DNA from: Chelydra serpentina | Lineage: Eukaryota > Chordata > Testudines > Chelydridae | Assembly: GCA_037349315.1 (NCBI GenBank) | Contig: JBAIAC010000059.1 | Coordinates: 25,142,501-25,206,500 of the forward strand | DNA: 64,000 nucleotides | Reading direction: 5' to 3' | Shown here: piece after piece, positions 10,601 through 49,000 of the stretch | Layout of the letters: every line of letters starts with the position of its first letter | Numbering within the stretch: position 1 is the stretch's first letter | Made by a program: the position numbers and the translations under genes | The notes under the pieces: model-generated | Seen by the model: the letters and a program-made list of their open reading frames with translations, nothing else | What the model was told of the DNA's origin: nothing | Databases searched by the model: none

Positions 10601-13600
10601 CGCTCTCCCAGTAAGTGGGGGGGCTGAAGACAAGATTTTAGCTGATGTAAATCAGTTTGGATCCCCCCTGAAGTCAATGGATCTATGCTGCTTTACACCA
10701 GCTGGGGATTTGTGAGTGGATAACGGGAAGGTCAGCTGGAGGAAGCCCTATTGCCTCAGTCGTCTATAACTGAACAAGGCTTCCCTGGGCCAAGCAGGAG
10801 AGGGAGGGTCACAGTTGCGGAGGTGGGTCGGGTGGGTGCAGAGAGATGGACTGTGACCAGTGGGGGATGGGATTTGTTGGGACGTGCACACAGTGCTGAT
10901 GGGTGTTGTCCTGTAGGTATCGGGATTACAGGAACTCCGATGACTACAATTACTCTGTCCAGTTCTGGCACGTTTTCGCAGCCCGGCTCGCCTTCCTTAT
11001 TTTATTTGAGGTGAGTGCTGTGGACGGTGGCTCTGGAGTCAGCAATGTCCGGGCTGCATGGGGAGCCTCGTGCGGCATGGGGAAGGAGACGGAGGCGGTG
11101 GGGGAAAGAGAGTCGCACGTTCTTCCCTGGGGAGTGATCTGGCAGTGGAGGGTGTGAGCGTGCATGGCTGGGCACTCTTGAGGGTGCTGTTTCCGCACTG
11201 GCTTCCTTCTCTTGTCCCCAGCCTGACCCCTTCAGTGAGGCAATTAGCTCCTTTATCGTGGCACTGCCCCTTTGCATCAGCTCCCCGCTCCCTTCACCTG
11301 CCTTCAGACCCTCCCCTGTGTTCTCCTGCACTCACCCACACCTGTCATCGCTTTCCCTCTCCTCTACCCCTGTGCCCCTGCTGACCGTCACTCACTCCTG
11401 CTGTTAGTCCCTTGCTCACTTGCCATCTGCCCTTCAGGCCATGCCATGCACAGGTGACTAGCAGGAAAAACAGCCACTGCCCTTGGCTGGGGGCAAAGTC
11501 AGCTGTCCTGGCAGTGGTACCCAGGGCCGGTGCAAGGAAGTTTGGCACCCTAGGCGAAACTTCCTTGCACCAGCCCTGCACCGCCCACCCCTGCCCCCTG
11601 CTCCACCTGCCCCCAGTGGCAGCTAACCCCCCCCACCCCCCCGCAGCGGCAGCTCAGCCCCCCTGTGGGCCGCGGCAACCTCCCCACCCGCCCGTGGGCC
11701 TGGCGCCACGTGCCCCCACTGGGCTGCGGCGGGCTCAGCTCCACGCGCCCCGAGCCGAGGCGGGCTCAGCTCCCCGCGCCCCCCGCCCCAGCCGAGGCGG
11801 GCTTAGCTCCCTGCGCCCCCCGTCGGGCTCAGCTCCATGCGCCCCCCTGCCCCAGCTGGCCCGGCTCCCCGTGTCCCCCCGCGGGCGGCGGCGGGCTCGG
11901 CCCCCGCCGGGCTGCGACGTGCTCGGCTGCGGTGGGCCCAGCTCCCCGCGGACGGCGGCTGGCTCGGGCTGCGTTGGGTCCGGTTCCACGTGGCGGGGCT
12001 GGCTCCCCATGGCCCCCGTGGGCGGCGGCGGGCTCGGCCCCCGCCGTGCGCCGACGTGGTCAGCCGCGGTGGGCCCGGCTCCGCGCGCCCCCCGCCGGAC
12101 CGTGGCGGGCTCGGCCGCGGTGGGCCCGGCTCTGTGCGCCCCCCGCCGGACCGTGGCGGGCTCGGCCGCGGTGGGCCCGGCTCCGCGCGCCCCCCGCCGG
12201 ACCGTGGCGGGCTCGGCCGCGGTGGGCCCGGCTCCGCGCGCCCCCCGCCGGACCGTGGCAAGCTCGGCCACGGCGCCCCATTCCCCACCACGCCCCCGCC
12301 GCTTCGCGGCAGCTCACCTCCATCGGGCAGGGGCAGCAGGGACAGCAGCAGCTTCTGAGAAGCTGCGTTCTCGGCGGCGGTTTGAATCCCCGCCAGGAGT
12401 CTCCGCCCCCCAAATCCTGGCGCCCTAGGCGACCGCCTAGGGTCGCCTAGTGGGAGCGCCAGCCCTGGTGGTACCAGGGCAAAGCTGGCATTTCAAAAGG
12501 GAGTGTGGGGTGCAGCCAGAGCCAGACACAAAGCTAAGAGAAACCAGGGACTGTGGGTCCTCATGGATCTGCTACCCTCTCTGGCCCAGGTTTCCCAGGA
12601 CTAGAATGAGAAGGGGTTGATGTTTTGGGGGCCCCATAGTAGCCTCTATTTGGGGCCCTAAGGGGAGGCATTACCCCATAAATCATCCCTGGATGCCGCA
12701 CTGTGTGTGTATTTTATGACTCCGATCGAACTCCCACTGAAGTCAATGGGAGTCTTGATTGATTTCAGTGAGAGTTGGATTGGGCTCACGTACTTGGTAT
12801 ATGCCAACGTAGCAGCTGAGCATGGCCATGGAGTGAATTCCTTGCTAATTGCTGCTGGGTCACTGATCACAGCATGTCTCCCCTGAGAATGGGTTCTGAC
12901 TGCATGGTGGGCTCTGCTTGCTCGTTTCAGCACGTGGCTCTGTGCATCAAGTTGATTGCAGCCTGGTTTGTACCTGACATCCCCCAATCGGTTAAGAATA
13001 AGCACCTGATGACAAAATATGAAAATCTACAGAAAAACTCGGGGGGAAAACTCAGGTAGGTGTTGTGCTAGGAATAGTTGTGAAGGGTCCTGGAGTGCTC
13101 TCTCTCCTGGAGGGCAGTATGATCTAGAGCAGGAGACCTGGCTTTTTGTCCTGATTGGCTGTGTGACCTTGGGGTTACTCACTGCACCTCCTCTGCACAG
13201 ATATCATTAATATTAGCTGCCCTCCCTCAACCACCGCTCCACTCAGAGGGCTACTCTGAATAGGAGTGGGCAGAGCAGAATGGTCTATGTTGGGGCTTGA
13301 CAACAGCTTCCGTTCTGCCCAGGCTGGCATCAGTATAAGGGATAAAAAATGATCTGTGTTGGCCAAGTGTCATCTCTACTCCACTGGCAAAGCCTAGGCA
13401 TCGTAGGGTCTTAACTACCAATTCTACCACAGGTCAAGCTCCTGACATCTAACCTGCCTGTTCAGTAGGGGAAATGTGAGATGGAGGCTGGTGGCATGTG
13501 ACTTCTTAGAAGAGAGTCCTGCAAGCATTGGTTAGCCTCCCAAAGGAAGCAGTGGAAGCACTACCCCTGGTTTCACTTAAAACTAAACTGGGGGATAGAA

Positions 13601-27626: not shown

Positions 27627-27759
27627 AGTACTGCATGAGAGTGAGCCAAGGTGGAGGGGAGACTGGCCTCTGTTCTGTCCGTAACAGCTGTGCTGTTAGC
27701 CCTCTGCCTTCCCAAGGCTGCCGCAGGGAGTGAGCAGGAAAGGACGACAGCCCCACCAG
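27627..27759 (+). pseudogene. Relic signal-peptide exon of an ancestral SIGIRR, start codon missing
   Basis: Acceptor 'ttatcttctttgcag' and donor CACCAG|gtgagg bracket a 133-nt exon that ends in phase 1, the same phase in which the SIGIRR Ig exon begins. From 27651 the frame encodes a short charged start, a hydrophobic core (LASVLSVTAVLLALCLP), small residues AAAG at a likely signal-peptidase site, then SEQERTTAPPG. An in-frame TGA at 27642-27644 excludes entry from upstream, and there is no ATG in frame: the position with ideal initiation context (gccaag-GTG-G) reads GTG. The only ATG (27635) is in another frame and stops at 27731. It may survive as 5' UTR, use a non-AUG start, or be dead. 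Confidence 0.7.
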
Positions 27760-30700
27760 GTGAGGATCAAATAGAGGTGACGTGGAGTAAAGTGGGAGCT
27801 CAGGGCTGGGGGTCGCGGTGTATGGTGCTTGATGATAAAGGCAGACTTGCTCCTTTAGAAAAGGAAACAGGGACTGTTGGATCCACAGGCTCTCCCCTTT
27901 CCCCTGGGTTCCCCAGCCCCACTGGTCCCTGCTGCTCCCCTTTAACCTGCTTGGCCCTGTGGCCTCTCTTCCATCCCTGCTGTGAAAACCCACCGGTTCT
28001 TCTGTTACTCCTCTTATACCCGTGAGCTCTGCTCTATCTCTAATCTCTATTGTTTGACCTTGAGGGGGTTCCCCTCCTTACCCTCTCCCGTCCCTGCTGT
28101 TTGATCCTATGGGCTCCTTTCTATCTGTCTTCCCTGTTGCTTGATCTTGTGGGCTCTGAGTCTGGGATCCCCACTGGATGATACTGCAGGCCTCCATTAT
28201 TCTCCTGACCCACAGGCTTCCCATTAATCCCTTGCTTCTTGACACCCTGGCCCCCCTCCTTGCGCTGACCCTGTCAACTGCCTTTCTCCCTGCTTCCTGC
28301 CTCTCTGAAGTGGCAGCTCACCATCGTAGTAAATGGCACTATCTTTCCAAACTTCAGCAGTGCCACCTTAATTGTAACATGCAATACTGGATTTAACTCA
28401 TCTCAACAGAGTATGAAACTATAGAATAGCTCAATAAAATTGCTTCTGCACCATGGACTTCCCCAAGAACTCTGGCCCTTGAAACTACTGAGAGGAAAAC
28501 AGAGGCTGAGCTGTAATTCTGGGGAACACACTGAAATACCCCCTCGTCTGGCTTATGCAGGTTTGGAGACCCTGGGAGTGGGCCAGAGGCAGCAGCAGAT
28601 CAGTGATTCTCTTGGGGTTACCTTCTCTCCCCAGATTCAGGAGGTAGGGGCCTTGCTCCCTGCCTAGCAGCAGATTGCTATGTTATAAAAATATATAACA
28701 CCAATGTGTGTGTTCTCGCTTCAGAAAAATCCAGCTGTCGCCATCTGCACCTTGGACTTTACCTCTTTGTAGGTTCCTACTACATGAGCTGATCTGACTG
28801 TCCTAAACTCTTGCCTAGTGCCCTGCTTGTTCCCCCCTGAACATTGTGGGGGGCACTCCGTGCCTTTGTTAGCTCAGGATCACATGTTGTATCTGTCCCA
28901 CTTCTTGTCTGACAAGAGGGGCATCTCTAGAAAGCCAAGGCTGCTTCTGGCTTGACATTGTTGGTCTCCAGCAAAACTGAGCTGTGAGCATTTCTGATTG
29001 GGATGGAGGGGGCAGAGGGAAGGGTTCTGACTGGCTTACGAGGGGGCAGCATCTGCTGAAGGTTGGAGTACTTTGCCCAAGTCTAGCAGCTCAGAACTCT
29101 GTCACCTGTCAGCTCTGGCCTTCCACACATCGCAGGGTGGTGGTGGGTAGGAGTTATAAGGAGAGATATTCACAAGGTAGGGATTGGCCTCCTCCTCTTA
29201 CACATCCTTCAGCTTGGACTTTGTGCCAGCCATATTTCTTGCTCACTGTGAGATAGGAGCAAGAGGGCCCTGGTAGTGACTCTGAGGGATGAGGCCTGGA
29301 GGGATAGAAGGTCCCTCCTCCACCCGGTCTGAATGATCGAATACTGGCTTTTAGGAAGAGTCTGAGCTCTCAGAAGAGGCTGTAACTTTCATAGACTTCC
29401 TCATTCTGACCTACTGGAACAAAGCGGTGTTAGTCATCAACTCCTCTACCAGACATGGCTGGACTGAGTCTGAACACCCGCAGCCGTTTAGAAAAAGGGT
29501 TCCAAACCTTGGATTTACCCTGCATCAGCAATACACCCCTCCCCCCCCAACACATGCCCCCTCCTGAGTTACAGCCAATTAAGTTGCTGTTTCAGCACTT
29601 TCCCTCCTGGTGTCTTGCTATCCCAAAGCCCCCTCACCCAATCACAGTGGATTTGTGAAGAGATTTGTTACAGGGGCACGGGGCTCTGTCCTGTCTGCTA
29701 TGAGCAGGTGAAAGAGGAGTGTGTTTAACTTATTTCTTTGGAATTTACTTTTTGGTTGATAAAGCTGCACCTATTATAAGTGTCTCTTGGGTGTCTCTTG
29801 ACCCATAATCTGGTCCCCATTGGAGAGCCCTGCAGAGAGAGCTGTAGCTGCTGTTCCAGCCAGATGAAAGCCTTAGGCCCCCAGACCTTGACCTTCGTAA
29901 ACAACAGATCCTTTCACTTCCCATCTCATAAGAAAGGGAAACTGTTTCTTCAGGGAAAGGTTCAGCTTTGTTGAGACGTTTGTGGGCCCAGACACAGTTC
30001 AATCCTGGAAAACCTGCACTATCTAGGAGCCATCACAGCCCCAAACTGTAATTTCAGAAGCAGTTTGCATCAAGAGTGTCAAGGTGTGGGGCCCATTGGA
30101 AGGAAACTGAGATAAGGGTTATCTCTCTGCCCCTCCCTGGTATGCAGAATGTGTTTATGGTGGTATTGGCCCTGGGAAAATCATTGACAATGTCAACAGT
30201 TTATTTGTTGGTCCACTATTACCCTGTAATCTACAAGCTTTTGCATTAAGAAGGTTCTTCAGGTATATCAGTACAGATCAACTACCCCACCTTGCCTAGA
30301 CTGGTTTCATAGAAACTGTTCACACTTTGCAGACCATTTGGGCCTGAAACTGTGTATACGTTGTCTAATTTGTTGATCCACTAAAAGTGTCAATGCCTCT
30401 CTTGCCCACCTTTAGCGTAGTGTAACTTCCCTCTTCACTCACACATGACGATCAGGTCACTGACTTAATGGAGCTGGGTTGATTTTCACCATCTAAAGAT
30501 CTGTCCCAGTGGTTTTTGGAACACACCCCTCTTTGCTGTTTGCGTGGCTGGACTCCTTTGCATGTCCGCTCTCGCACCTCTTTCCTCTGCAGCCTGGCTG
30601 TAAGTTAGCATGCGGATGCGCACACACCCTTCGCAGTGTCTTTCCTTGAAGGGAAAGCTGCACCCACTTTGCTTTGCTCAACAGTATGAAAGGTCACCGG

Positions 30701-30898
30701 GTATGCGGCACTTGTTACTATAAATAGATTGCACACCGTTTAATTAACGACTTCAATTACAAATGGCAAGTCAAAGCTCCGTGCCGGAGGCAGTTGTCTG
30801 GCTGGAAAGTGCTGTCGTTTGTGACGCTGGAAGTGCCAACAGGGCAGCTGTCAATCACTTTACTTTAAGGCTGATCTAGCCATCAGAAGGAACTCTGG

Positions 30899-31149
30899 TC
30901 AGCTCTACACTAAAAAGTTACGTCAACCCAGCTATGTTGTCCAGGGGTGTGGAAAATCCACCCCCTTGAGCAATGTAGTTAAACCGACCTAACCCCTGAT
31001 GAGGGCAGCACTAATTCTTCCATAGATCTAGCTACAGCCTCTCGGGGAGGTGGATTAAGAACAGCAACAGGAGACCCTCCCATCACTGTAGTGAGTGCCT
31101 TCACCGAAGCGCTCCAGCAGCTCTAGCATTTTAAGTGTAGACACAGCCT
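30899..31149. mobile_element. hAT-like MITE, about 251 bp
   Basis: The start 'agctctacactaaaaagtta' is mirrored by 'ttttaagtgtagacacagcct' at the end. 'aggggtgtggaaaatccaccccc' is a subterminal hairpin known from this element style. Confidence 0.65.
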
Positions 31150-31419
31150 GCGTATGGTTTAACAGTGAAGCATTTTGTGTCAAGATTAGTGATCCGAGAT
31201 TATGAGGTGGGAAAATAATATGGATAATTATGATTCTCTGCTGGGCACCATTATTAACTTGTGACGTCACAGTGCTTTGTCCTGTAGCCACATTTTAAAC
31301 CATGACAGTTCCGGTTGGATATTGTCATCCACCTGCTAACTTACTGAAAAGGAAAGGAGGGTGAGATTTAGTGTGCTAAAGGAGGGGGGTGCATCCCTGG
31401 CAGTTCTCCCTCTGTGCTG

Positions 31420-31510
31420 GGGGAGCTGCCCCATCCCCTGGCTTGCAGTGGTTTCCATCATATATACAGGGTTTACAGTGTGGTTCAATGGCTGTCAGCA
31501 CCCCTGCCCT
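31420..31510. repeat. Interspersed repeat, family member B
   Basis: Matches 10385-10480 over 'gtggtttccat...tacagggt.tac.gt.tggttcaatgg.t.tcagcacccc', so this is the second copy of that unnamed repeat. Confidence 0.55.
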
Positions 31511-33239
31511 CATCTTCACACCTGGTGGCCAATCCTTTGAGCTGGCGGTTGCAGAGGAGATGCAGGAGGGAAAACCTGTGCTGAACTGCCTGGGTGTGTA
31601 TAGCATCACCGGCAGGGGAGGAGGGTTTGCAGCATCTGGGTTTAATACCACACTTTCTTCTCTCCTGCAAGCAGAGATGATACTGTTAGGAGTCAGCAGC
31701 ATAGGACTGGCTGGTGAAAGGTCAGGGCAGGAGGGGGCTTGTCCCAAGCTACGAGGGGAGTTAGAGCTTGCTTAAGTCAGCTGAATAGGGAAGCCTCCAG
31801 CCTCATCTCCTTCTCCTGCACTGCTGATCGGATATGGAGGGCCATAGCTGGCAATTAATTGCATAGCCCACAATGATGAGAGAGAGGGAGAGAGAGAACC
31901 TGAATGTGCAGCTGTTACCCACAAATGCAGTGAGCTGATAGTTCTCCCATCTATTGTAATCCTAGCACACACAGGGATTCCCCACAGTTTCATTAAGGGG
32001 GGAGAAGGGGTAGCAGTGATTAAAATACTTAAAGGTCTGAAAGAACCGATTTATGTAAGAAGATGGCGAACTAGGGAGATTTGGTTGGATTACAGAGAGA
32101 ACTCATGCTGGCTGGACAGGGGGCAGTCTATTAGGATCTGAAGGGTACAAAGGCCCAGGGGGAAGTGAAACGGTTTTGGGTGGTCTGGGAGGGAGGGGTG
32201 TAGAAGTAAGAGTGATGAGCTGGAACTGAGCAAAGGAACGTTTCAGCTGAAGGGCAGCCAGGATGTCCTTCCACTGAGATCCATTTGAGCCTGGTGCAGC
32301 CACCTAGGAGGGGGAGTGGTGAAAGCCTCATTGTTTGAGTTATTAAAAGTGGCTTGGCCAGAGCCCTGGAGAAGACATCGCAGGGGATGACTCCATGTTT
32401 GCCTCAAGGGCAGTGGGATTTGTTCCTTGCCCTCATCTGATTTCTAGGATTGATCAGTCCCCAGAATCTTAGAAAGCTGAAGCAATACAGCTGAGGTTGG
32501 CCTAGGTTAAATGAGGAATGAGGGGTGCAGGCAGGAAACCCATGGGGAAAAGAAACTCCCTTTGGGGAAACCCTGCATTGAATTGAATGACTGTGTGGCT
32601 GAAATCCACATGGCTGTACTGTAAAAGGAGGAGAGGGTGTCCTCAGCCCTGCCCTGCAGCAGCAGCACTGCGACTCCAAACCTGCTCTGCTCAGTTTGCT
32701 CTCCCTCCACCTCCAGGCAGGCTGGGTGTGTGCTCAGCCCCTTTGGGGAGTAGCAACACTTTCTCCTGCAGGCTCTAGGTAGATCCTGGCTCCACAGTGT
32801 TTGCACAGCAAGCAAAGCCAGCATGTTTACATACCAGCAGCAGATACCCAGCCCTGCCTCGGAAACCTGCCCCAGCTAGTGCTGCTTTGGAAGTGTGGTG
32901 GGGGTTTTACTACGGAGGGAGACAAGGCAGAGGGCTTGAAGGTCAGCTAGAAGATATGGGTCTGACAGAACTTCCATAGAATAAACCTGGCTGTGCCAGA
33001 GACTGGGTTAGCAAGGGCATTAAGAGCTATTGTGTAACCTCCGGTGTCTTTGAGAAGTCAGTAGGTCTAGGATTAGAAGCATCCTGTTAGCAATTGTACT
33101 TGCAAAGCCTTTACCTGCCAGCCATGCCCTTGATTCCTTCTCATGGCACCTGCCTGATTGCCTGCCGGGTGAAAATTTGTTCTCCACTCTCTGCTGTTCT
33201 GATGTCAGCCAGTCCATGCTTATTCCAGGGAGGAATTAA

Positions 33240-33513
33240 GTCCCTGGATGGGAACTCAGGACAGGTGGGCTCTGTTCCCTACTCTGCCACAGGCTTCCTG
33301 CATGAACTTGGGCAAGTCACTTAGTTCCTGAGCCTCAGTTTCCCCATCTGTAAAATGGGGATAATAACCCTTCCTTTGTCTGGCTTATCTGTTTGGAATC
33401 TGTGCTCTCTGCAGCGCGTCTGTCTCTTCCTGTATGTACAGCACCTAGCGCCGTCTTTCTTGGGACCTCTAGGTACTACTATAAATACAAACTACTTATA
33501 ATACAAATAACTA
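33240..33513 (+). repeat. MIR-like SINE
   Basis: Contains 'gaacttgggcaagtcactta', 'cctcagtttccccatctgta', 'aaatggggataataa' and a 3' end 'gtacagcacctagcgccgtc' with an ATACAAAT-type tail, the typical vertebrate CORE-SINE layout. It lies 180 bp before the relic Ig exon. Confidence 0.75.
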
Positions 33514-33689
33514 GTTTATTTCAGCCGGCCCAGCAGACATTTGTCATCTCTGCAGTACGCCTGGTAGTGGGGAACATTGATTGCCTGTGTGCGTGCAGTG
33601 TGCGTGCAGCATGCTACTAACTGTGCAAGCTGTTACATTTTAACCTGGTGTATTTCATTTCTAACTTATTCCTGTGTCATTCCCGCCAG

Positions 33690-34012
33690 CCTTGGATCTG
33701 TCCTGCCAGGACCTCGACCGCTTCTATGACCACAATGTGTGGAGGCAGCAGGAGCCTGGTAATCATTTGTTCCGTCCACTGGACGAGCTGAGCCTCTAGC
33801 TCCTCCGGTCCAGCTCAGACTTTAACCTCCTGTGGTGCAAAGACTGCGATCCGCTGAACCCCTCCGCACAGAGCCACTTGCGCTGCATGCCAACGGGACC
33901 GCTTACCTCACCTGCCAGCGCCTGCAGGCTGGCGATGCCAGGAACTACACCTCCCTGCTCTACCTGAACAGCCACAGAAACGTCACCTTCACCATCAGGC
34001 TGGCCATGGCAG
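33690..34012 (+). pseudogene. Relic first Ig-domain (D1) exon; its last 7 nt carry the SIGIRR start
   Basis: Acceptor 'cattcccgccag', donor GGCAG|gtaggg. Entering in phase 1 it reads ALDLSCQDLDRFYDHNVW..., then TAG in frame at 33797-33799, then FNLLWCKDCDPLNPS, the Cys/Trp core of an IL-1R-type Ig domain. The frame then shifts by one base to LTCQRLQAGDARNYTSLLYL and [10 protein letters not shown], an Ig F/G-strand region in which the usual Y-x-C cysteine is serine. Length is 323 nt; a phase 1-1 exon should be a multiple of three, so one base is missing, in agreement with the translation. The exon probably persists as 5' UTR because the live ATG (34006) is inside it. Confidence 0.78.
34006..34012 (+). 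CDS. SIGIRR: SIGIRR start-codon exon (7 coding nt)
   Basis: ATG GCA G followed by the donor gtaggg. Spliced to 35471 it gives [12 protein letters not shown]. The start context GGCCATGGC is near-optimal. It is the 3' edge of the relic Ig exon. An unseen alternative first exon could supply another start. Confidence 0.7.
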
Positions 34013-37000
34013 GTAGGGCTTGGGGACGTCACCCACAAATATAGCTGTAGAGCCAAGATTAAATACCTGGCTTGAAACACTGATGCCTCCTGCTGGCTGA
34101 TACAGGGAGTAACATTGCTGCGCTTCAGGAAAGGCCGCTTGATTGCTTGTGCTACTTCTGGCTTATTAGACATACACACAAAGTGTCCCATTCTGCGCCT
34201 CTGACGCTCAGCAAGCAAACCTCCATGAGTGCAGGAGGGGGGAATTGCAGGAATAAGTGCCCGTGTATAGGTAGCTTTGCTTTGACAGGAAATATTAAAA
34301 CAATACTTGTAGTGTAATGTAATCCACCTCCCCCACTAAACACTCCCCCATTTCTGAGCATCTGTTCACTGCATTTAAAAAGAAACAAGGGCCGCAGCAG
34401 GGACCAAAATAAACCCTAAATGGTGGTGGTAGAGAGCAAGTATACACAGTCCCCTGACTACTCACTAGTATGACAACATACCTGAGGGGGGAAGCAAAGG
34501 CTGCGATCCTCACGAGCTGAGCTTTGACAGAATGAAATAGGGAATGAGCAGCCACAGGAGAGGGGGCCAGGGGAGTAAAGTGGTTTGCGACACAGATTTG
34601 ACGAGGTGGAGAGGTACAGGAAGCTGTTACAGATGGCGTACAATGCAGAAGAAAAGGCTCTCACACCAGCTGGGAAGGGTCAAAAGCCTCAACTCCCATT
34701 GAAATATTACTCTTGACTGCGGTGGGAGTTGAGTCAGGCACGGAGAGGAGGCTGCTGCTTCCAATAGGAAAAGCAGCAGCCATGTGGAGATAGGGCACAG
34801 TGCTGCCCGCCCACTGCTCAGCTCCTAAGACATTACCTCGTTAGGATGGCAAGTAGCTCTTTGCCATGGGTCTGTACTAGTCCTTAGCGCTGGAGGGAAA
34901 AAGGCAAATATGGGTGCAAATGTGAGTGAAAGTCACTTGCTCTGTATGTATCATTGTCATTTTAGAAGTGACACACTTTAACCAACTTTCACTAACAAAG
35001 GTGCACACACAGCCTAGACACCTTAGTTGTCTGTAGGGGAACCTTCAACACAAGCCCCTATGCCTTGTGCTATAGGAGGAATTTTGTTAGCAAGTAGGAG
35101 GCTGTTAGAGTCATTGGGGACCAGGTGCTGGGGGGAAAACATGGCCACGCACACTACACCAGTGTGTTACAAACAGACTGTATGGCTGGGCCGTTGGGGC
35201 ATTTTGCATGTCTGTATTATCTGCAGTGTGGCTCTGTTACTCATTTTACTAACCATGTGATCAATTTCTTCGTTGGGGGTGCAGAACTGACTGACTTTAG
35301 AGAGTGCTGTCAGAGGCACAAAGGAAGACAGGAAAAAACAGATGTCGCTCTACTATAAAGGAAAGGATTTAATATTAGGTGTAAACTGAAGAGATTTGAG
35401 ACTTATTTTTAAATGGATGCTGTCCCTTTAAAGAGTCTCTCTTTGAGCATTTCCTTCCCCTCCCGTGTAGATCTGTGCAGTGTGCCTCCCGAAGTCCTCT
35501 TCCCATCCAGCAACCAGACTTTGGAGCCTGCCTTGGGAAGCCAGATAACACTGAACTGCACCGTGCGGCTGCCCGTTCAGCAGCACTGCAACCCCGTCCT
35601 GCGCTGGATGAAAGATGGCCACTGGCTAGGCAATGAGAGCAGCCAATACCCCAGCGAGGAAAAAGACTGGTAAGGAGTCTGACCTAGCTATAAATAGAAA
35701 GAGGCACTGAGGTGGCTACTGACAGGCAGGGCAAATTGCTTCAATCGTTGCTTAAATAGCATTCATGCACCCAGTGAGCCACAGTTCAGTGGGAGTTCTG
35801 GACCCACAATCAATAACACAGTCTCCACTGAGCAGTACCCCAAATCCCAGTGTTTCCTATTGATAAACTCAACTTCACATGAGTCCTGGACCACAGTGTG
35901 CCAGTGCTCAAACCTCCAGCAAGACATCCGCTCAGCCAAAGTGCTGATCTACACCACCTCCCTTCTAGCCCTGGCTTCCCCACACAGCTCTGCTAGTGCA
36001 CCTCAGACCTCATCTGCAGCACCTCAGTTCTTCTAGCACCACACACAGCTCTGCCAGGGCACTTGAGTCCTGACTAGAACACCCCGTTAGTCTTGTCCAC
36101 AGCTCAGACAATGCACCTGAGGGCAAGTCTACACCACAGCGCTACATTGGCGCAGCTGCTGCACATCTGCTACAACAGGAGAGCACTCTTCCGTCGGCAT
36201 AATTACTCTTCCTTGGCGAGAAGCGGAAGTGCTGGTGTGGACAGTGCAAAACTTGCATCGCTTGGGGGGGTGTGTGTGCTTTTTCACACCCCTGAGTTGA
36301 TCAGTCTTGATCTGCAGCACCCTTGCTATTCCAGTCCTAGCCTTCCCTCTACATCTGAGGGCACTTCTGTCCTGACTCTCACTCATAGGCGCCACCTCCG
36401 TGGGTGCTCCGGGGCTGGAGCACCCACAGGGAAATATTGGTGGGTGCAGAGCACCCACCGGCAGCTCCCCGCCATTCCCGGGGCCCGCACCCAGCTCCCC
36501 GCCAGTCCCGGGACCGCGTCAAGCTTACCTCTGCACCGGGAGACGTTGCGGGGCCCCGCCCCCGACGCCGGGTGATATTGCGTCAGGGGCAGGGCCCCGC
36601 AACGTCACCCGGCGTCGGGGACGGGGCCCCGCAATGTCACCTGGCGTCGGGGGTAGGGCCCCGCCACGTCGCTCGGGGGCAGGGGCCCGGCATCAGCCCC
36701 CACCGGCGCCACCGGAAGTCAGTGCCTATGCTCTCACTTCCCATCCTGGGCCTCTTGAGGAAATGTGCCAGTGATGTCCGCTTTTTAGGTGGAGGTTGGG
36801 TACAATTGAGAAGTGGCCACGATCACCCAACATCTATTAATTTGTGACTGACACAGGATCTGAACTCATGTCTCTGGAATATAAGCACAAGCACACTGTC
36901 CTTTTTATCCTCTTTCTCTAAGGTATGTTTTAAAAACTCATAATTCCACAGACACACAGATAAACAATGAAGCACAGTGTGTGTGGGGGGGTGGGGAACA

Positions 37001-40000
37001 AACCAACCAAAGCCCCACAAAGCACGTAGGCCAGCTGACGTTTCTGCCCGTTTTATATTATGGCTCAGTGAACTAAACACAGGACTGTCTGCAGCACAAA
37101 GTGAGGGGTCCAAGGGCTGCTCCATGCTCTGGCTCAGATTCTGATGTCAGTGCCACCAGAGTAAAGCCACTGTGATCGGTGAAGCTCCATTGAGTCGGCC
37201 ACTAGAGTGTGTGTGTGTGAGCACATTTATCCATCCCCTGTGTTGGCCAGGCAATGGGGACTCCAGCAAAGCAACTCCTACCTTTTTGAAGGCTTTCCTG
37301 CCACTGAAAGTTAGATTCTAATGATAGATTTAGGAACCCGACTTTAGGATGCTATTTTTGAAAATCTTGGCTAAGTGCAAGGTGGATTCCCGCTGAACTG
37401 GAACCGGGCTAATGATTTATTGTGTAAAGGAACAAAAGGCTAACTCTAAAGTAAAGACATTCAAGTAGATCATAGGATTCTATCAGAGCTTCGAGGTGGC
37501 TAGCACTATCCTTCTATCCAGTCCTTCTCCCTTTCCAGGCTGAATCGTTCCCCACCGTACAGCAGAATGACAAAACAGAATTCCTTTAGGCTACATGTAG
37601 AACTCTAACTAGAAGCTCCTTCTTCTTCTCTTCCATCTCCTAGTTTAAATAGGAATCCATTTCCCTGAAAGTGTACCCTGTAGCACTGCACTGATGCTAG
37701 CCTCTTTTGTCCCTCAGGCTCGGTGATAACGCAACAGAGACGTTCATGTCCAGCCTTCTGGGGGTGAACCTGACAAGTGACGAGGACTACGGCGTGTTTG
37801 CCTGCTGGGTTAGGAATACCACAGCCACTTTCACACTACAGAGATCAGGTAGCTCTTTGGGCATTTACAGCACACTGAGACTGGGGCAGGGAAGGGGTTA
37901 CTATACCATTTGTGGTGGTGTCTTCTGGATACGGCCTTTCAACAAGGTTTGGCCAGTCTATGGAGGCTCTCCAGGTGGAAAGAGAATCCCACAGGTATTT
38001 CTGAGATGAGTTGGGAGTAACTTGAAGATCCTGACTAACACTTTCCCAGTAACTAGCTCTAATATTGCTATACTGTGTGTGGGAGATGCTGAGTGCCTCA
38101 CAGACTGTCCAGAGTAAAAAATGCCCCCCATAAAAATAAATTCCAATGGAATCTAGAGAGCTCTTGACCTCAGACGCACAGATCATAGTTATGGCTCCAG
38201 ATTTTCATGGTGGGAAGAACCTCTTGGATACTGTGATTTTCCTGTTTGTCTCCGACTTCTCTTTCTGTCTGTGATTTTAATAAACTCACCCTGCAGCGGT
38301 AGCTGCTGCAGCTGGGCCCTGCTCCACATCCTGGACATTGCAACCTGGCACACAGGGTGCACAGTACTGCACAGGTGTACCCAGGCTGCCCCTCCATCAT
38401 GCCAAGGGGCATCCAGATCACATCTGATTGAGTGGCATTGTAACTTGACAAGGGGGGGCAAGGGTCACAGAGCCCAGAGCCAGGCCCAGCCCTGAAGGAC
38501 ATGAGCTGCTGTTGTAGGGTTAGTGTGGGGCTGGCTCACTCTCTAGCTCCCCACACCCCAGTCCCTCCTCCTTTGTTGCAGCATTTTTTACCCAAGTCAC
38601 AAGCCCCATGACTTTTACTAACTTTACCATGCCTGCTTCATGAGTTTTGATTTAAAAACTGTTATGACAAGTCTGCAGCCCTAATCATAGTCCATAAACC
38701 CGCGGTTGCGTCGCGCTCACACCACACCTGTTAAACCGGGAAGGACGGCCCGGGGATTGCTGCAGGGCTGAGGCTGACTAGTTCCCGGGCAGCACGGTTG
38801 TACAGTGAAGAGGCTGCTGTCTTGGCATTAATTAAATAACCAGAGCATGAAGTCAGTTTAGCAGTGAGACATTCACGGTGGGCTTGTCAAGACTCCCTTT
38901 GATCTCTGCCCAGTGAGCAAGAGGATACTTTGAAACCCCCCTTCTGGAGCCGTCCTGCTTGCCATGCTGAGTAGTCACACAGGCACTGTGTATGTGGACA
39001 TTGAGTGGCAGGGCCTACTTTGATTAGCTCTTGGATTTAAAGGAACATGCAGTGCGCGTTAACCCTTCCAGTGACCTGCTGAGGCAAGTCCTGAACTTAT
39101 TGCCAAATTTTCTCAGCTATTGCTCTTTTGAAAGTAAACCCTCCAGCAACGAGACACTATTGGGATAAAGGGGGTGTGGGGGGGGGGGGCAAAGGAGGCT
39201 TTATTATGTAAAGATGCTCTCTTTCCATATGCTGACAGAATATGGTGCCGTGGAGTGCTGGAGATGGGCCTGCCTCCAGGAGGCTAGTCACCTAGGTCAA
39301 GACTTCTTTGTTTGAAAGAACCGTGCGAAGGAGTTGATGATGGGGACTCTCTGGATTCAGCCCAACTGAACATAGCCTCTCCCTCTGTGTGTGCGTGTGT
39401 GTGTGTGTGTGCACGCGCCCTAGTCAAGGGATTCATTAGTCCCGTTCTGAAGAAGGAGAATTCAGCTCTGACACTATGGCTGGTCGTAGCCAGGAAGCAC
39501 CAAATACCCTGGACCCCAAACCCTCTCATCTGTTTCTAGGCTGCTGTCACAGAATTTGGGGGCCCCTTTAGATCACGGAGCCTATATCACCTGATCTGTG
39601 TGATCCTTCTTTAAGCTGATGCAGCTGAGCCACTCTTCACACTGGTGGCTAGAGCTATAAAAAGCCCAGTAGATCAGAGTCCATCCCCTGTACATGCATG
39701 ACAGCATCCACAGGCAGATGCTGCAACTGTTTTACTAGATTGTAATCTGACAGAGCTTTGAGGCCAGTAACCTCTGCTCAGTTCTTCCCTCTGCAGACCA
39801 TAACCTACCCCAAGCCCCTTATTCACCAAGGTATAAATTCCTTTAGTTCAAATGCTAAATGTACTGAAAATGCCCTTCTCTGTAATTGCAGAAGCTGCTG
39901 GACATGTGAATGCAGTGCTGGCAGCCCTCCTCGTCCTGGGGCTGCTGCTGCTCATGGCTGTGATCTATGTGAAGTGCCGCTTGAATATGCGGCTCTGGTA

Positions 40001-43000
40001 CAAGAACCGTTACGGGGAGCTAGAGATCAATGGTAACCCTTAAGGCTTTTGTGAATCTGGTTTTCAGTGCCATTTGCACATTGGGTTTGAGGGAGACGGG
40101 GAAAGACTCAATGATCCAGACATTCCGGGCTTCTGCTGCTTCTCTAAAGGCTTCATGAGAAAGGGATGGGAAAGCAGAAGTGAACTAGAATTCCCCCGGA
40201 CCCAGGGGGTCTTCCTGCCTCCACCTGCCCACAGGGTGACTCCCACCCAAGGGCCAGCCTGCCTCCTCCTAGTTTGCCCAGGGTGCTCCATGTAGCAGAG
40301 ACTTTTTTAAAGATAATCACTAATGTGTCTGGATTGTGACTCCTTGTTCCTCTAATAGAGTCTCTCTCCTCTTGGTTCAGTATGTGTGAAGGGAGGCTAC
40401 TCCCTATGTTGGGTTAAGGTTGAAGCTAGCTTCCTCTTAAAAGCCTGGTTTGTCAATCCACTCCACCAAAGCCAAACCAATCAACTTGAAACTTCTCATA
40501 CCACATCTCATCCGGAGGCTCAGTTCTTCAAAAAAGTTTGCAGCGAATCACTCAGGGAGTTTCAGAAATGACATTCTTCTTCGAGTGCTTGTTCATGTCT
40601 ATTCCAATCAGGTGTGTGCGTGCTGCGTGCATGGTCGTCGGAAACTTTTCCCCTCAGCAACTCCCATCGGGTCGGCTAGGGAGCCCCCTGAAGTGGTGCC
40701 CTCGTGGCGCTCAATATATGACCCTGCCGCCCCGACCCACCTTCAGTTCCTTCTTACTGTCCGTGGCGGCGTTGGAACTGCATTTTGGAGAGTGCATTTT
40801 GCTTGCTTGCAAGTGTTCCCTTAGCCTACCTGGTTTCTTAGGTAGTTTGTGTATTGTTGTTTGTAGTTAGTATAGAATTGGGGAGTGGGATGCTTCCCAT
40901 CCCCTCACCCCACCTTGGGCTTCGGGGCATGCCTCAAGCCCAAGGGATTTAAGTATTGCGGTGTATGCCGAAAGCCTATGCCCAATAGTGATCCCCACGA
41001 CTTGTGCCTGAGGTGTCTAGGGGAAGCACATCAGTCTGAGTGCTGCAAAATTTGTAAGGCTTTCAAGCCTAGAACTAGAAAGGAGCATGACTTCCATTTA
41101 AAAGAGTTGCTAATGGAAGCCGCACTCCGTCCAGCAGCACCTGACTACCAAGGCCCAGGCCCGAGCTCAGTGCGGAGCGCCCTGGCATCGGTCTGCATAT
41201 CGGTGCTGAGGAAGGACTCTGGTGCAAGAGACCCTCGGCACTGAAGATCCCTGCCACCACAGCAAGGAGCACTGCCCTGGCACTGATCCACATCTCCGGT
41301 GCCCCACAAGCACCATAAGAAGGTGGACAGAGGGCGCTCTCCTCAGCTGCGAGACCATCAGGGGAGATTTTGCTGCTCCAGAGGAAGGACTTGGCTCCCA
41401 AGGAGCAGGGGCTCATGCCGTTGACTCCGGTGCCCCAGATGGCACCGTTGAGCCCGGCGCTTAGTGACTCTCTGGCAGGGCAGTGCCTGGTGGAGGTGTT
41501 GGAGTTCCCCCTCCACTCCGACACTTTTGAGGCTGCTAAGGAACTTATCGACATCACTGCGTCTCAGCCCCTGGCCATTAGAGAGAAGCCTCCAACACCA
41601 CCTAGACAGGTCCTGTCTAGAGGCAAGCCTGTGATGATGAGGTTCTCCTCGTCGCTGGGCCGGCACCGTTCCAGGTCCCCATCGCTGCCACACTCCCCGG
41701 CACCGGCCTCGGTACAAGATCACATGGCCCCAGGAGCATGATGATCTATGTTGTTGGCACCGATCTCGAACACCCTTGCAGGGCCGACACACGACACCGG
41801 AGCACAGCAGCCGTTCCCCAGCACTGGACACGTGGCACCGGTCTCGGTCCTGGTACAGTCGGCACTGATCCTCAACGCGATCATCGCAGCACCAATCCCC
41901 GACCTCCTCTTCATGGCACCGACTGCCGGCGCAGGGGTCATCGGCACTGCCGTAGTCATCGCCCTCGGAATCTTCGGACTCAGAGGCCGACTCATATTAC
42001 TCAAGGCGCAGTAGACATAGGTCCGGTAAGCACCAAAGAGACGTAGAAGCGGCCTAGGAGCTGCGGTGGCCACCCGCCGCACAATGGCCCTTCTGGACCC
42101 TCTGGGCTTACCATCAGGCCCAGGTATCCCTTCAAGGGCTTCTAGGTTGGTGGCCTCGGGAAGTCACCCTTCCTGGTCACCGATGGATAGATCTGCCCCT
42201 CGGGTTACAGAAGCGACCCTCTCCAGACCACCGCCTCACACTACAGAGGAGTTGGCAGAACCGGCTCCAGAACCACCCATAGCCCAGGACACATCCGACC
42301 GGGTCGGACCACTGGAGAAGTCCAGTGCAACCCAGGAACAACCTGGGCAGATAGAGAGCCATGAGGATCCTGTACCCCCACTTGCTTCCTCGTCATCCTC
42401 ACCTGATAGGGCGGTGGCAGGAGTGTCTGCTTCAGGAATTCCACTCTCCAAAGCACCTAAACATTGGAAAGTAGGCAAATACATAAGTCACCTAGACATC
42501 CTTAACTCTTCCCCATTGTGCCATCAGAACACAGATAACCTTTGCAGTCCGTCACAAAAGTTCGGTATGATTTTTTTTGCAGTCATTAATTAGATGTCCC
42601 TGAGTAAAGGACGAATAAAGTGTTCTCCAAGTTTCTGGTTGTTGGTGTGGTGGGGCAGAGTTAAGATTGTTTGAGTGACCTTAATTCTGTATTATTCACT
42701 GTCTTGGCTAACTTTTATTTAGGACTTTTGCTCAAAATATATCATGGATTCTTTTAACATTTAACTCAAATTATGGTTGTTTGTAAGGTTGCCGTAGTCA
42801 TATTTGGTCCCAGGATATGAAACACAGACAAGGTAGGTGAGATGATGTCTTTTATTAGACCATCGTCTGTTGGTGAAAGGTACAAGCTTGTACCTTCCAC
42901 CAACAGAAGTTGGGCCAATAAAAGATATTACCTCACCTACCTTGTCTCTCTAATTATGGTGTCTTTTTAAAATCTGGGAATACTAGGAGTATGTGCGTGT

Positions 43001-46000
43001 GTATTTTATCTCCTATTTCTGCATATTAAAAAATACATCAGTATAGAGATGGTGAGAACTGATGAAGACAGATACTTGGGACCATTGCCAGGGTTGCTGT
43101 GGGATTTGTATTATTACTTGTATTACAGTTGCACCCACCATCTGCTTGGTGCTCTTCAAAGCATCTACGAAGAGATAGTTCTTGTCCCCCCAAAAACATG
43201 CAGTCTGCTAGCACAAGTGGTTATAACAAGTGGTAACTACCAGTGGTAATGACAAGTACAGTCCTCTTTGGGGAAAGAATTCTGATGATGTCACCAGGAC
43301 ACTGGGGTGTAAGATCAGGTCCCGCTCCAATTCCTGCCTTGCTGCTCTCAGGGGGACAGGAACATTTTAAAGTCCACCCTGGAGCTCTCTGGTCCATGTG
43401 GCTGGGATGTTAGGTTTCCTACATGGTGAGTTTTTCAGTGTCATTAAAAATCCTGGAAATAGCACCATCTAGTTACACAGCAATTCATATGCAAGTTAAC
43501 ACAGGTGCCCTGCCCCAAAGAGATTCCAGCCTGAGGTGTCAGAGCAATGCCTTCCCCAGTTGGGAAGCTTATAGGAAGCTGGCTGTCAGTGCTGACAAAC
43601 TGAGCACTGTATCTGCCATTCTGTAATGTTAAGTGTGTCTTTTGCCACCCCCATTCTCCCTGGCCCTGCTGGGCACTTTTCACAGATGGGAAGCTGTATG
43701 ATGCATACGTGTCTTATGCAAACTCCCCGGACGACAGCAAGTTTGTGAACTTCATTATGAAGCCACAGCTGGAGAACCGTCATGGCTACAAACTCTTCCT
43801 GGATGATAAGACCATCCTGCCCAACTCAGGTATGCACCATCCCAGACGCTGCCAGGCTCAGGTTAGATGGGCATGCTCCCCCTGCTGGAAAGTCAGCCTT
43901 AACCTTAGGTTAATGAACCTGCTCTTTAGTACCCAGGAAGCCTCACCTGGCATAGCAGGTCTGCTCTCTGGTGTGACACTTCCCTTTGCTCTTCCACACA
44001 CCTTGCAATCAAAGATTACAAACACTAACTGATTAAGAATGCTGTGATGTCAATAGCCGAGTGTTTTAGAGATGGGAAAAGAGAGGCACTGAAAGGTTAA
44101 GTGTTCCCTCCAACTTCACATAACAATTCAGTGAGAGAGTTGGGGATGGAACCCAGGAGTCCTGACACCTGGTCCTCTGCTGTAATCACTGGAAAACACT
44201 TTCATCAGATCCGGTAGTGTAACCTGAGTCTGGGAGAAGAGCACGTTACTCTCTAAGACAGGCTGGGTTATGAATTCAACTGTTTGAGAGACTGTGGGTC
44301 TCTCTGTGAGGACACCCTGTTGCCCTCAGTTTGGGTTTGTATGCTAAGGCAGCGCATTCCTGGAAGAGGAATAGTGAAGTGCTGGTGAACCATTCCGGCT
44401 CTGCTTAGTCTTTGCCCTGGCTGTAAATCTCATTTCTATCCTACTCGCCTAGAGCCTTCAGCAGACCTGATTATGAACGTGAGCCGGTGCCGGCGTCTCA
44501 TTGTGGTCCTCTCGTATGCATACCTGGAGCAAGACTGGTGCATCAACAACTTCAGGTAACTGGCTGGTCACTGAGCAGGGTTCTAGGCTGCTGCTTTGCT
44601 CCCCTAGTAGCACAGAGGTAGTGCTCACTAGATTGTCAGAGTGACTGCATGGGAAACTGCACCCTGTTCTTCTCCCACCTCTGCAATCCAGTCATGTTAT
44701 TCCTCCTCCTCCTCCACACTGCTGGGGTGCCCAGCAGTGGAGTCACTGAGAGCACAGGAGCGACAGTCTCTCTGCTCTCAGTTCCTATGTCTGGTACCAC
44801 AGCAGCTTGTGATGGCTGCGAGGAGCAATTGCAAGTAAGTCCTGCTTGGTGACCTAGAGCATGCTCAGTGCAGACAGTATCTTCAGAGCATTTAGCAACC
44901 AAACTCTAACAAGTCTCTACTGAGCATGTGCAAACTGCAATTTTTCACAGGCCAGATTCGGGTGTATTTTCCTAGGGGCCGCAAAAGGCACATCTTGGGC
45001 ACCATGGTGACCTCCTTCCCAGCCCACCAAATTTCAAGTCTCTTGTTCCAATGCCAAAGCTTCTGAATGAAACTATTGTAAGATATTATTTTTTAAAAAG
45101 TTAAAAAAAAAATTCTTCCTTAATCTTGTTCTCTGACATGGTTCAATTTTTTCAGCTCAAATTTTCTAAAACATTTGCTAGACACCTGGCATGGAAAATT
45201 CCAGTCCAAACTGTGAAAGTTTGCCAAAGTTAGAAGCCAATGAATGCAATCTTATCATAGACAGTATTGGGCAATCTTAACTAAAGGCATCTCTTCCAGC
45301 TCCACCTATAATGTGGTTACAAGCCCTAAAAATCTTGCCTCTGTTCTCCTTATTCCAACTTCCAAAGCAGTTAGCTCCCAAGCCAATGCTCATTGAAGTC
45401 AATGGGAGTCTTTCCATTGCTTTGCAGTTGGTCAGGGCAATGAAGAGATGGGTTAGCTGAACAGGCATGATTCATTGCACTCCTGGGAATGGTTGCCTTG
45501 TATTGCAGGGAAGGTCTGTTGAGACTGTTGGAACTGTCCCAAAGACCCATCTTTGTCGTCTTTGAAAGCCAGTATCGGGAGATAGAGCATCTGGCCATTA
45601 ATCTGCTGAAGCAGCACAAGAATGCCGTGACCGTACTGCTCTGGCGGGCTGGCTCAATGGTAAGCTGTGGCTGGGGTGGGAGCGGAAGGTTCCGGTCAGT
45701 GAGGTTTCTCAGCACTGCTGAAAGGCTCTGGGTACCACTCTCCTTGACAAAGCAGCATTTCAAACTCTGCAAGAAGCACTGAGGTGCAGATGTGGTGGAG
45801 GGCCTGAGACGCTCCCTCTGCTCACTGACCCCACAATGGTGTGTGTCGAGGCTGCTCTGCTACTCCAGAGCTGGAAAAATAGAGCGAGATAGGCTGAGTG
45901 GGGTCTTCAGGATTTTCCCTACTAAACCCTTCTGGGGACACTTCACTGTCCTGCCCCTATACATCCCTCCTCTTGGCATCTGCTATGGCTACTCTAGCCC

Positions 46001-49000
46001 TATGACTGGGAAGGCAGACCAGCTCCAATCAGTTGTCAGTTCCTGAGCTGGCCACTAAGAGATGCTGCAGCCTCCCTTTCTGGAGGCAGTGAGCACCACT
46101 TCAACCCTTCGGAGGTAACAGAGAAACCAGAGCTTCTCCCAAACCCACACAGACTGAATCCTTCTGCAAGGACAGGTGCTGAACTGTCAGGCCAAGCCTG
46201 TTGCTACTCAGGGCTAGTCTACGTTAGAAGCGCTACAGTGTCGCAGCTGCAGCGCATCTGGTGACGATGCTCTGTGCCGACGGGCGAGAGCTCTCCTGTC
46301 GGCATAATAAAACTACCTCCATGAGAGGCAGTAGCTCTGTTGGCTGAAGACGCTCTCCCGCCGACAGAGCTCTGTCCACGCCGGTGTAACTCACGTCGCT
46401 CAACAGGGTGGTGTATTCACACCCTGAGCGATATAAGTTATACCGACATCAGTGGTAGTGTGTACAAGCCCTTAGGCAGCCCCTGCTGGAAGTGTCCTGC
46501 AATACCAGAACTAGAGGACAGTGACCTTTGAACAGCCTGCACTGCAGCTCTCCCCAAAAGGACTCTTGGCAGCTGCCCTGGGCTCCCTGCACTGCAGCTC
46601 TCCTTGAGAAGCCCTCTGGCCACTGACACATTATCCACATTAATTGCTGGCTGGGGTTGTTCACAAAGAACAGTAAATCCTGTAATCCACATAATCCTCC
46701 CTCGCCTGAAAGCTCAGAGGCAAAGGAGCATGGAGTTTCGTAGAAGTGCTGTAGCTCCAGGTAGTGACCCAGATGGCCACGTGGTGGCACCATAACCTGA
46801 GAGATGACAATGGGCAGCAGGTTAAGAGACGTCTCAGCATGCTACAATGCTGGGGAAGAATCTTCATCCCCAAAGAGACACGGAGGCGACGAGACAGATT
46901 TTCAGAAGTGCCCAGCTCCCATTGAGATCAACGAGAGCTGCTGGGTGCTGAGGACTTTTGAAACTCGGGCTGTAAATGACTTGCCCAGAGACACCCATCA
47001 AATCAGTGGCAGAGCTGGAACAGAGCCCCAGTCTCCTGTCTGTGCGCAGGAATGACCACACTTACCCAGGCTGCCTTTGTGGATGTGGTAATGGGATAGA
47101 GAAGTTAGATGCACAATTGTGCAGGAGATTGGATGTCTGTCTGCGTAAAAAGCGAGGCCCACAGTGATAGTAGAGCATTTTTAAACCACTCCCTACAATT
47201 AACAACGTTCCCTCTTCGGTCGTGTTCTAGAAACCTACATTCCCAGCGGTGCTACTCTTCAGAGATCAGCATGGACTCCCCTGGTAGAGCTGAGCTCCCC
47301 TGGTGCCACTCACGTGGCTGTAGCCTCCTCTCCGGTTCTCGGACAGAGGTTGGGTGTACAGTGTTTGGGCTCTCTCATTAGACTAGCCACAGTCCCCTGT
47401 GTACCTGACACAGGATGACTCAGCATGGAGCCAGCCATTTAAACCCTTTGGTTCATTACGTTCATGGGAACACGCTGCCTTTCTCACCTGGCCTTGACAT
47501 GTGCAACAAAAGCCAAGTTTAATGCTGTCTTTCACTACCAAGAGCATTTTAGGGCTGGCTTGTCCCGGGCCCTTGCGCACCCCACTCATGGCACAGGAAC
47601 AGCTAATCCCCACATTTGGGGAAAATGCTGAAATTACTTCTCTGCACTACTGGGGGCACAGCTTGAAGGGGGGGGGCAAAGAGCGGCAGCATCATGTCCT
47701 CGCCTACCTCTCCCACCGCCCCACTGTGCATGTTCCCTGGAGCTCTGGGTGGATCAAGTCTCTGATTTCAGACTAGAAATGCTCAGTTCACAAGTCAAAT
47801 GTGAATTCTAACAGCCAACCCCAAACTCTCACTGGGCGCTTTCCCTCCCTGCACCATCACCATCACCAGGGGCTCTGCAGGCCTAATTCTGCCCTCAGTG
47901 CGGCTGGTGCAACCCCCGTCTTCCTCTCCTCGGCTATGCCAGTGCCAGCCACGGCAGGCTAATGGGTTTGCACAGATGTAAGCAGGGGAGGCATCATGCA
48001 GAATCGTTATTCCTGGTGACGATGCAGAAGGAGGAAAGACTCTGCTGTCAAATCCCAGAGCCTAGGGTCTGGCAGTTACAAGAGGCAGGACCTTGGCTTT
48101 GAACTCAGCGACACACACGGGAGCCCCATTCTGCCCAGGGGAGACCTGCACTTTAACTCTCTCCAGAGCAGAGGGTTTGGGACTAGAAAGTTAGCTTGGA
48201 AATCTGGACAGAAGCTTTCTCCTGGGTCTAAAAGGAAGTCCTACCGCTTCCTACCGTTTGAAAAGCTGTTTCTTTTTCAAACCCAAGCCTAGACCTGCAG
48301 CTTCTAGCCTCCACACAGTCTCAGCAGTTCTGCAGGGATCTCCACACAGGTTCTGCTAGTTTTTCCTGATCCCAGCTTGGCGAGAGGCCATCTTCTGAGT
48401 ACAGCCTTTGCCAGAGCTCTCTTCCTGGGGCTTCAGACATGTGCAGGGACCTGCCCTTGCTGACACCAGGGAGATGTGCTGCTAGAGCAGCCCTGCCAGA
48501 GGGAAGCAGCACTGAACAAATGCAAGGCCCTCCTCCAGCTTCAAGAAGAAAGCATTGCGCATGCCAGACTGTCAGTGTCCGAGATGGCGGGCCCCATCCA
48601 CACTTGCCCCTGACTGAAGGGGATTGGAAGCTTCTTGTAGCTGGATTGGTCAGATCTCAGGAGCTTCCGTACAGCATTAACTCCTCCAGAATTGATCCTG
48701 GTACTGCAGATGAGGTAGCACCGAATCCTTCTTGGTTCAGATAATGTGAAATTCCCAGTGAAGAGACAGGATTACACCGTTCCCCTGCTCTCTGTGGGAC
48801 CCAGGAGTGGGGAATGCCACAGAAGGGGCAGAAGTTTGCAGGAGGAACATGCTCTGGTGGATAGAGCACGTGACTTCTAGTCAGGGGACCTGGGTTTCAT
48901 TCCCAGCTCTCAGTTGCACCATTGACCTGCTGGGTGCCTTCTCTGGGGACGGGACTTCCCCTCTGTGCCTCGTTTCCCCTTCCACCCTTCGTCTGTCTTG

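Follow-up and report, generated by a model that had tools for sequence, protein, structure and literature searches.

SIGIRR (IL-1R8) restrains IL-1 and Toll-like receptor signalling. The mammalian protein, also called TIR8, contains a single Ig domain of the D3 type, a transmembrane segment, a TIR domain and a C-terminal tail (PMC3482685), and the SIGIRR proteins of zebrafish and grass carp are reported to be single-Ig as well (PMC9448908). Fish also possess a second architecture termed DIGIRR, described by Gu et al. in 2011 (via PMC3705552, PMC9020223) and later in golden pompano (PMC9448908), which combines a signal peptide, two extracellular Ig domains, a transmembrane segment and a SIGIRR-type TIR domain. 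DIGIRR is reported at the chromosomal place of SIGIRR, as an alternative to it (PMC9020223), and was proposed to be an evolutionary intermediate (PMC3705552, PMC9020223, PMC9448908, PMC7144542, PMC3482685). The origin of SIGIRR is disputed: the DIGIRR intermediate (PMC3705552, PMC9020223) stands against a 2018 study that reports no evidence of an IL-1R family ancestry for SIGIRR (PMC5861070). A review from 2012 called the evolution of SIGIRR little known (PMC3482685), and a survey of over 400 species from 2025 lists SIGIRR-like proteins that are mostly single-Ig or Ig-less (PMC12108812); all of these statements are taken from the accessible parts of the papers. In its accessible part, a comparison of anole, softshell turtle and chicken receptors (PMC4090809) does not mention a two-Ig SIGIRR, and among the papers listed by a literature search that covered few subscription journals, none concerns a two-Ig SIGIRR in reptiles by its title or the start of its abstract.

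Here we analysed a window of 64,000 nucleotides, the whole stretch of DNA presented above, which carries the SIGIRR gene of the snapping turtle Chelydra serpentina. The live gene is composed of the following parts:

35471 to 35669, plus strand: first exon of the live Ig domain, equivalent to IL-1R D3 (tblastn with gharial protein P0001, 80.9% identity, E 4.5e-33; profile comparison)
37718 to 37848, plus strand: second exon of the live Ig domain (tblastn and alignment)
39892 to 51342, plus strand: rest of live SIGIRR with the transmembrane exon, the TIR exons, the tail and the introns (tblastn matches)

The first of these exons had been predicted together with its upstream phase-1 junction, and both were found again by reading and translation. 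The matches that cover the rest of the gene lie at 39888-40031, 43685-43828, 44452-44556, 45507-45659, 49375-49551 and 51136-51339, followed by the stop codon TGA at 51340-51342; the tblastn queries for the live exons between 35471 and 51342 were gharial P0001 and a human SIGIRR sequence. All live exons match without stops, the profile of the live Ig matches D3 of the IL-1R family, and among the 32 proteins compared the spliced live protein comes closest to a record of the box turtle Terrapene (P0004), with 93.8% identity. As far as it was examined, the live gene shows no damage, and with one D3-type Ig, a transmembrane segment, a SIGIRR-type TIR domain and a tail it corresponds to SIGIRR as defined and to the architecture of the mammalian protein. 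A SIGIRR intron contains, at 40876-42593 on the plus strand, open frames with a Cys-rich stretch that resembles a retrotransposon protein, the tested piece having no Pfam match.

In the turtle, the ancestral signal-peptide exon and the exon of a second Ig domain are still recognisable upstream of the live gene. Both had been predicted from the DNA letters, on the plus strand and joined by phase-1 boundaries, and reading and translation bear this out. They carry the following features:

27627 to 27759, plus strand: exon that formerly encoded a signal peptide and has lost its start codon (tblastn with gharial P0001, shuffles, donor rank)
27651 to 27653, plus strand: lost start codon, GTG opposite gharial Met1 (tblastn alignment)
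33690 to 34012, plus strand: decayed Ig-domain exon of 323 nt, probably the equivalent of IL-1R D2, with a phase-1 boundary on either side; it probably still serves as 5' leader and start exon
33773 to 33775, plus strand: B-strand Cys replaced by Arg (CGT), the Cys being invariant in the 13 functional rows of the alignment described below (alignment)
33797 to 33799, plus strand: in-frame TAG (translation, tblastn)
33881 to 33885, plus strand: frameshift site, 5 nt where the gharial protein needs 12 (gap between two tblastn segments)
33952 to 33954, plus strand: F-strand Cys replaced by Ser (TCC), the Cys again being invariant in the 13 functional rows (alignment)

The best evidence for the identity of these exons comes from Gavialis. 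A search with the read-through protein, in which residues 30-260 were scored, returned 17 proteins at E <= 1 among 1002 candidates, including the gharial record P0001, a 'single Ig IL-1-related receptor isoform X1' of 561 aa, which despite its name carries two Ig domains behind a signal peptide (P0001 represents a 90% cluster of 11 members, the representative alone having been seen). This protein spans the searched read-through from end to end, that is the end of the signal peptide, the first Ig and the second Ig, and aligns in order to the signal-peptide, Ig and live exons of the turtle. In tblastn searches against the raw, unpatched window, its residues 1-34 match 27651-27752 with 64.7% identity (E 1.1e-5), residues 39-100 match 33695-33880 (67.7%) and residues 105-145 match 33886-34008 (58.5%), the latter two with a joint E of 5e-29. 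The signal-peptide piece scores 39.7 bits against 27.3 for the best of 200 shuffles, and the Ig piece 87.8 and 50.4 bits against 28.5, so that the match of the turtle exons to the gharial two-Ig protein exceeds chance. The Ig exon is also matched by the two-Ig proteins of Anolis (3e-23), newt (9e-24) and sturgeon (3e-21), while the match of the signal-peptide exon depends on the gharial: Anolis matches it weakly (E 0.56), and the newt and sturgeon queries gave no separate match to it in the raw window.

The lesions that had been read from the letters were largely recovered. The TAG was confirmed by translation and the exchange of the F-strand Cys for Ser by its codon; of the claimed one-base deletion the frameshift stood, as the tblastn gap shows, and the size did not, the net loss being 7 nt, which equals 1 modulo 3 (with the same boundaries assumed, the gharial equivalent of the 323-nt exon would be about 330 nt long). 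Moreover, an in-frame TGA at 27642 lies just 5' of the GTG opposite gharial Met1, and the signal-peptide exon has no in-frame start. Compared with the DIGIRR type, a signal-peptide exon that enters the first Ig in phase 1 is thus present as a remnant orthologous to that of the gharial, non-functional by the loss of its start, and an open-frame distal Ig with paired core cysteines is absent. The TAG, the frameshift and the replacement of both core cysteines remove the turtle gene from the working members of the two-Ig SIGIRR (DIGIRR) type.

The DIGIRR type also adjoins an anoctamin gene, and this trait is present here: an anoctamin exon lies at 7256-7720 on the plus strand, upstream of SIGIRR (Pfam E 2.3e-21), and the sturgeon gene model P0031 fuses anoctamin to a two-Ig SIGIRR. 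Since anoctamin stands beside SIGIRR in turtle and sturgeon, the neighbourhood is old. Elsewhere in the window, the interval 11501-12500 has 78-85% GC, a CpG observed/expected ratio of up to 0.93 and long open frames on both strands, and an open frame at 60973-61554 on the minus strand resembles an armadillo-repeat protein; its tested piece had no Pfam match, and from the human gene order plakophilin 3 is presumably to be expected here.

Further two-Ig proteins, all comparison proteins being gene models, were collected by searching with residues 1-150 of P0001, which returned 15 proteins at E <= 10 among 383 candidates: the gharial itself, ten named squamate records (P0018-P0026 and P0028, from Hemicordylus, Elgaria, Eublepharis, Sceloporus, Anolis, Python, Lacerta, Varanus, Sphaerodactylus and Rhineura), P0027, the newt Lissotriton (P0029) and two sturgeon records. 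A query with residues 15-150 of sturgeon P0030, which returned 12 proteins among 290 candidates, yielded one more sturgeon record and thereby completed P0030-P0032; among these, P0031 and P0032 are damaged models. The sturgeon is the sole fish DIGIRR-type receptor compared by sequence, other fish DIGIRR being compared by description. The source-named two-Ig receptors (P0001, P0018-P0032) are all called 'single Ig IL-1-related receptor', except P0031, which is a hypothetical protein. These records do not support the statement that the SIGIRR of tetrapods is limited to one Ig domain and lacks a signal peptide, as the gharial, squamate and newt models contain two Ig domains, most of them with a signal-peptide stretch (none is recognisable in three squamate models, P0019, P0025 and P0028).

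Judged from these gene models, the two-Ig form is not confined to fish: the architecture described for DIGIRR in fish is seen in gharial, squamates and newt, and in decayed form in the turtle. Since gharial, squamates and newt all carry two-Ig models, the amniote common ancestor was most simply two-Ig as well, and this form is probably ancestral for amniotes. Turtles are placed as the sister group of birds and crocodiles in the accessible part of a phylogenetic study (PMC3473239), and with a two-Ig ancestor the turtle loss would therefore have occurred after the split from archosaurs; the single-Ig states of mammals and of zebrafish and grass carp would be separate losses. The proposal that SIGIRR descends from a two-Ig receptor with a signal peptide, of which this genome keeps the broken head, is thereby upheld by the exon-by-exon orthology to the gharial and by the two-Ig models of other vertebrates. 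The decayed Ig exon resembles an Ig domain of the IL-1R family, and conservation in related genomes is seen at the protein level.

In order to measure the decay, the turtle was compared with 13 of the 16 two-Ig models (functional rows), P0027, P0031 and P0032 being left out. Of the positions invariant in these rows, the turtle has lost 6 of 31 in the first Ig, with the truncated row P0028 excused for its first-Ig gaps, whereas all 21 of the live Ig are kept. The lost positions are Cys65 (Arg), Ser102 (in the gap), Phe114 (Cys), Gly123 (Arg), Cys127 (Ser) and Ser138 (Thr). For control, 12 functional rows (P0028 out) were compared one by one with the positions invariant in the remaining 11. A row then lacked 0-4 of 32-36 such positions in its first Ig and 0-4 of 21-25 in its second; most of these changes were conservative, and none affected a core Cys. 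Against all 12 of these rows, the turtle has lost 6 of 32 and 0 of 21 positions, respectively. The contrast shrinks when nine squamates serve as the reference: the first Ig of the turtle (12 of 47 positions lost) is just slightly worse than that of sturgeon (10) and newt (9), with 6 lost in the gharial; in the second Ig, the turtle has lost 5 of 42 positions, the sturgeon 15, the newt 17 and the gharial 7. Gharial and turtle are identical at 64 of 102 positions in the first Ig and at 89 of 111 in the live Ig, while the identity between gharial and squamates amounts to 61-69% in the first and 54-60% in the second Ig. The first Ig is thus the better conserved one between gharial and squamates and the second between gharial and turtle, so the order is reversed. 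Polarised with 12 outgroups, which are not independent, and resting on one turtle sequence and small counts, the dead Ig shows 11-18 changes in the turtle window only versus 6-9 in the gharial only, and the live Ig 1-6 versus 3-8.

These counts also bear on the explanation that the two-Ig gene is intact in the turtle and its lesions are assembly or sequencing errors. The stop and the frameshift alone could be read errors, but they are accompanied by the loss of the start codon, the replacement of two core cysteines and the loss of further invariant residues, all in the first two exons, while the live Ig has no such lesions and the live exons are stop-free. Besides, the read-through protein search named 11 turtle species, and a two-Ig representative record was present for none of them. 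An error of this kind is very improbable.

Which domain of an IL-1 receptor was lost is less clear. The family ectodomains, such as those of IL1R1 and IL1RAPL1 (PDB 1ira, 4yh6), contain three Ig domains, and the two-Ig SIGIRR is without the third. The original prediction had spoken of a D1 domain, a label that most comparisons do not support, although the results are mixed. It is favoured by the profile of the lost Ig, which matches residues 52-97 of IL1RAP, that is D1 (PDB 4yfd, E 0.023), and by a comparison with human sequences, in which D1 of IL1RAP outscores D2 of IL1RAP; yet the best single match in that same comparison is D2 of IL1R1, and among the 60 matches listed those of IL1R2, IL1RL1, IL1RL2, IL1R1 and IL1RAPL1 lie at residues 126-204, corresponding to D2. 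The predicted model of the two-Ig form falls on D2-D3 of IL1R1 and IL1RAPL1, a placement which the tandem order alone favours, and the cysteine pattern C..CPL..WxKDC..NYTC is that of IL1R1 D2. Thus, the lost Ig probably corresponds better to D2, with the live Ig on D3. That it represents D1 is doubtful, and this would be a matter of labelling compatible with the decay of a two-Ig gene in place.

The decayed Ig exon contains a further element:

34006 to 34008, plus strand: ATG proposed to start translation of the live single-Ig protein, lying within the final 7 nt of the decayed exon (context CTGGCCATGG)

The exon ends in CTG GCC ATG GCA G, followed by gt. The ATG at 34006 is the first one in the receptor frame, the nearest upstream in-frame stop being at 33823 with no in-frame ATG between them; the following in-frame ATG, at 35608, falls in the middle of the live Ig. 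Human and mouse SIGIRR begin with M-P-G-V-C and M-A-G-V-C, and the spacing from Met to Cys is the same as in M-A-D-L-C of the turtle. Among the 16 single-Ig models returned by the read-through protein search, eight (6 turtles, 2 squamates) start exactly at the residue of ATG 34006 with M-A-D-L-C or M-E-D-L-C, and those of Emydura (P0002) and Pelodiscus (P0006) start slightly upstream inside the same exon and read ...FTIRLAM-E/S-D-L-C across the junction to the live Ig. The other six (P0007, P0008, P0012, P0013, P0015 and P0016), which include two crocodile models lacking the first Ig, have other starts. Splice sites were scored by site frequencies: between 27.0 and 38.5 kb, the donor of the signal-peptide exon (CAG/GTGAGG) ranks 1 and that of the decayed Ig exon (CAG/GTAGGG) 4 of 639 GT sites, and the acceptors rank 46 and 6 of 887, with the middling rank 46 belonging to the decayed Ig exon.

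Taken together, we read the two exons as the orthologous signal-peptide and distal Ig exons of an ancestral two-Ig SIGIRR that decayed in place and serve as leader exons with the start at 34006, a reading to which we assign a probability of roughly 0.85. The orthology to the gharial exons, the lesions, the larger loss in the dead than in the live Ig and the two-Ig models in four groups are direct observations; the leader and start-exon part we infer from the protein models of other turtles, the strength of the splice sites and the need for a start codon. An ancestral SIGIRR of the DIGIRR type would have suffered decay of its signal-peptide and membrane-distal Ig exons in the turtle lineage, while both exons would have stayed spliced and become a 5' leader. 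Several short upstream ORFs would be bypassed by the ribosomes or translated to their stops, and initiation would take place at ATG 34006, formerly the codon for the final Met of the lost domain, so that a 7-nt coding remnant (M-A-D) would join the live Ig. The cleavable signal peptide and one Ig domain would be lost together, and the signal-less protein would depend on its transmembrane segment for delivery to the membrane, just like SIGIRR of mammals. The domain would not have been cut from the gene; rather, the start of translation would have shifted past it. Of the original 'dead' head, the coding meaning is indeed dead, as the lesions indicate, but the Ig exon probably continues to be spliced in and to provide the start codon, as suggested by the donor rank, the turtle models and the GCCATGG context.

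The leader function has its weak points, which are the five other ATGs in the two exons, opening ORFs of 10 to 32 codons, each of which terminates ahead of 34006, and making a poor leader, and the middling acceptor of the decayed exon. The same ATGs would fit a true fossil, in which the exons are neither transcribed nor spliced and an unrelated alternative first exon or later promoter splices to 35471. The six single-Ig models with other starts point in this direction too, as does the CpG-island cut, which was passed by no segment scored between 12.5 and 36.2 kb. Yet a fossil would hardly be expected to keep donors that are among the strongest of the region in both exons, nor a 7-nt remnant that is in frame within a GCCATGG context, and two other turtle models read the decayed exon into the live Ig while six start at its Met. 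We consider the fossil unlikely, though less so than sequencing error, and prefer the spliced leader.

The Met equivalent to 34006 is kept in 15 of the 16 two-Ig models, and the 16th, P0032, is without the whole strand. It may tentatively be proposed that this Met at the end of the lost Ig was a built-in alternative start, kept since before ray-finned fishes and tetrapods parted, a split that lies over 400 million years back. In favour of it, the Met recurs from sturgeon to gharial amid variable neighbours, and short squamate models start there. Against it, the Met occupies a hydrophobic position of a strand, where the fold itself may demand it, and the short models may be prediction artefacts. 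Two squamate records, P0014 and P0017, are such short single-Ig models beginning with M-A-D-L-C, in a group that also has two-Ig genes, a hint that one gene could give two products.

For the biology of this receptor family, the findings offer the two-Ig form in gene models of gharial, squamates and newt, with an Ig pair resembling D2-D3, and the same form in the middle of its decay in the turtle. They suggest a testable route from a receptor with a signal peptide to one without, in which the start codon shifts to the end of the lost domain; this path of decay is absent from the accessible parts of the DIGIRR literature examined (PMC3705552, PMC9020223, PMC9448908). Separate losses would be implied in turtles, in mammals and in zebrafish and carp, the last two being taken from the literature, and many reptile SIGIRR records are misnamed. 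Lizards and turtles side by side offer a natural experiment on the role of the second Ig domain. If the alternative start were ancient, the ancestral locus would have made two products, a two-Ig receptor with a signal peptide and a single-Ig receptor without one, and the long form would have been dropped independently in turtles, in mammals and in some fish by decay of the upstream exons.
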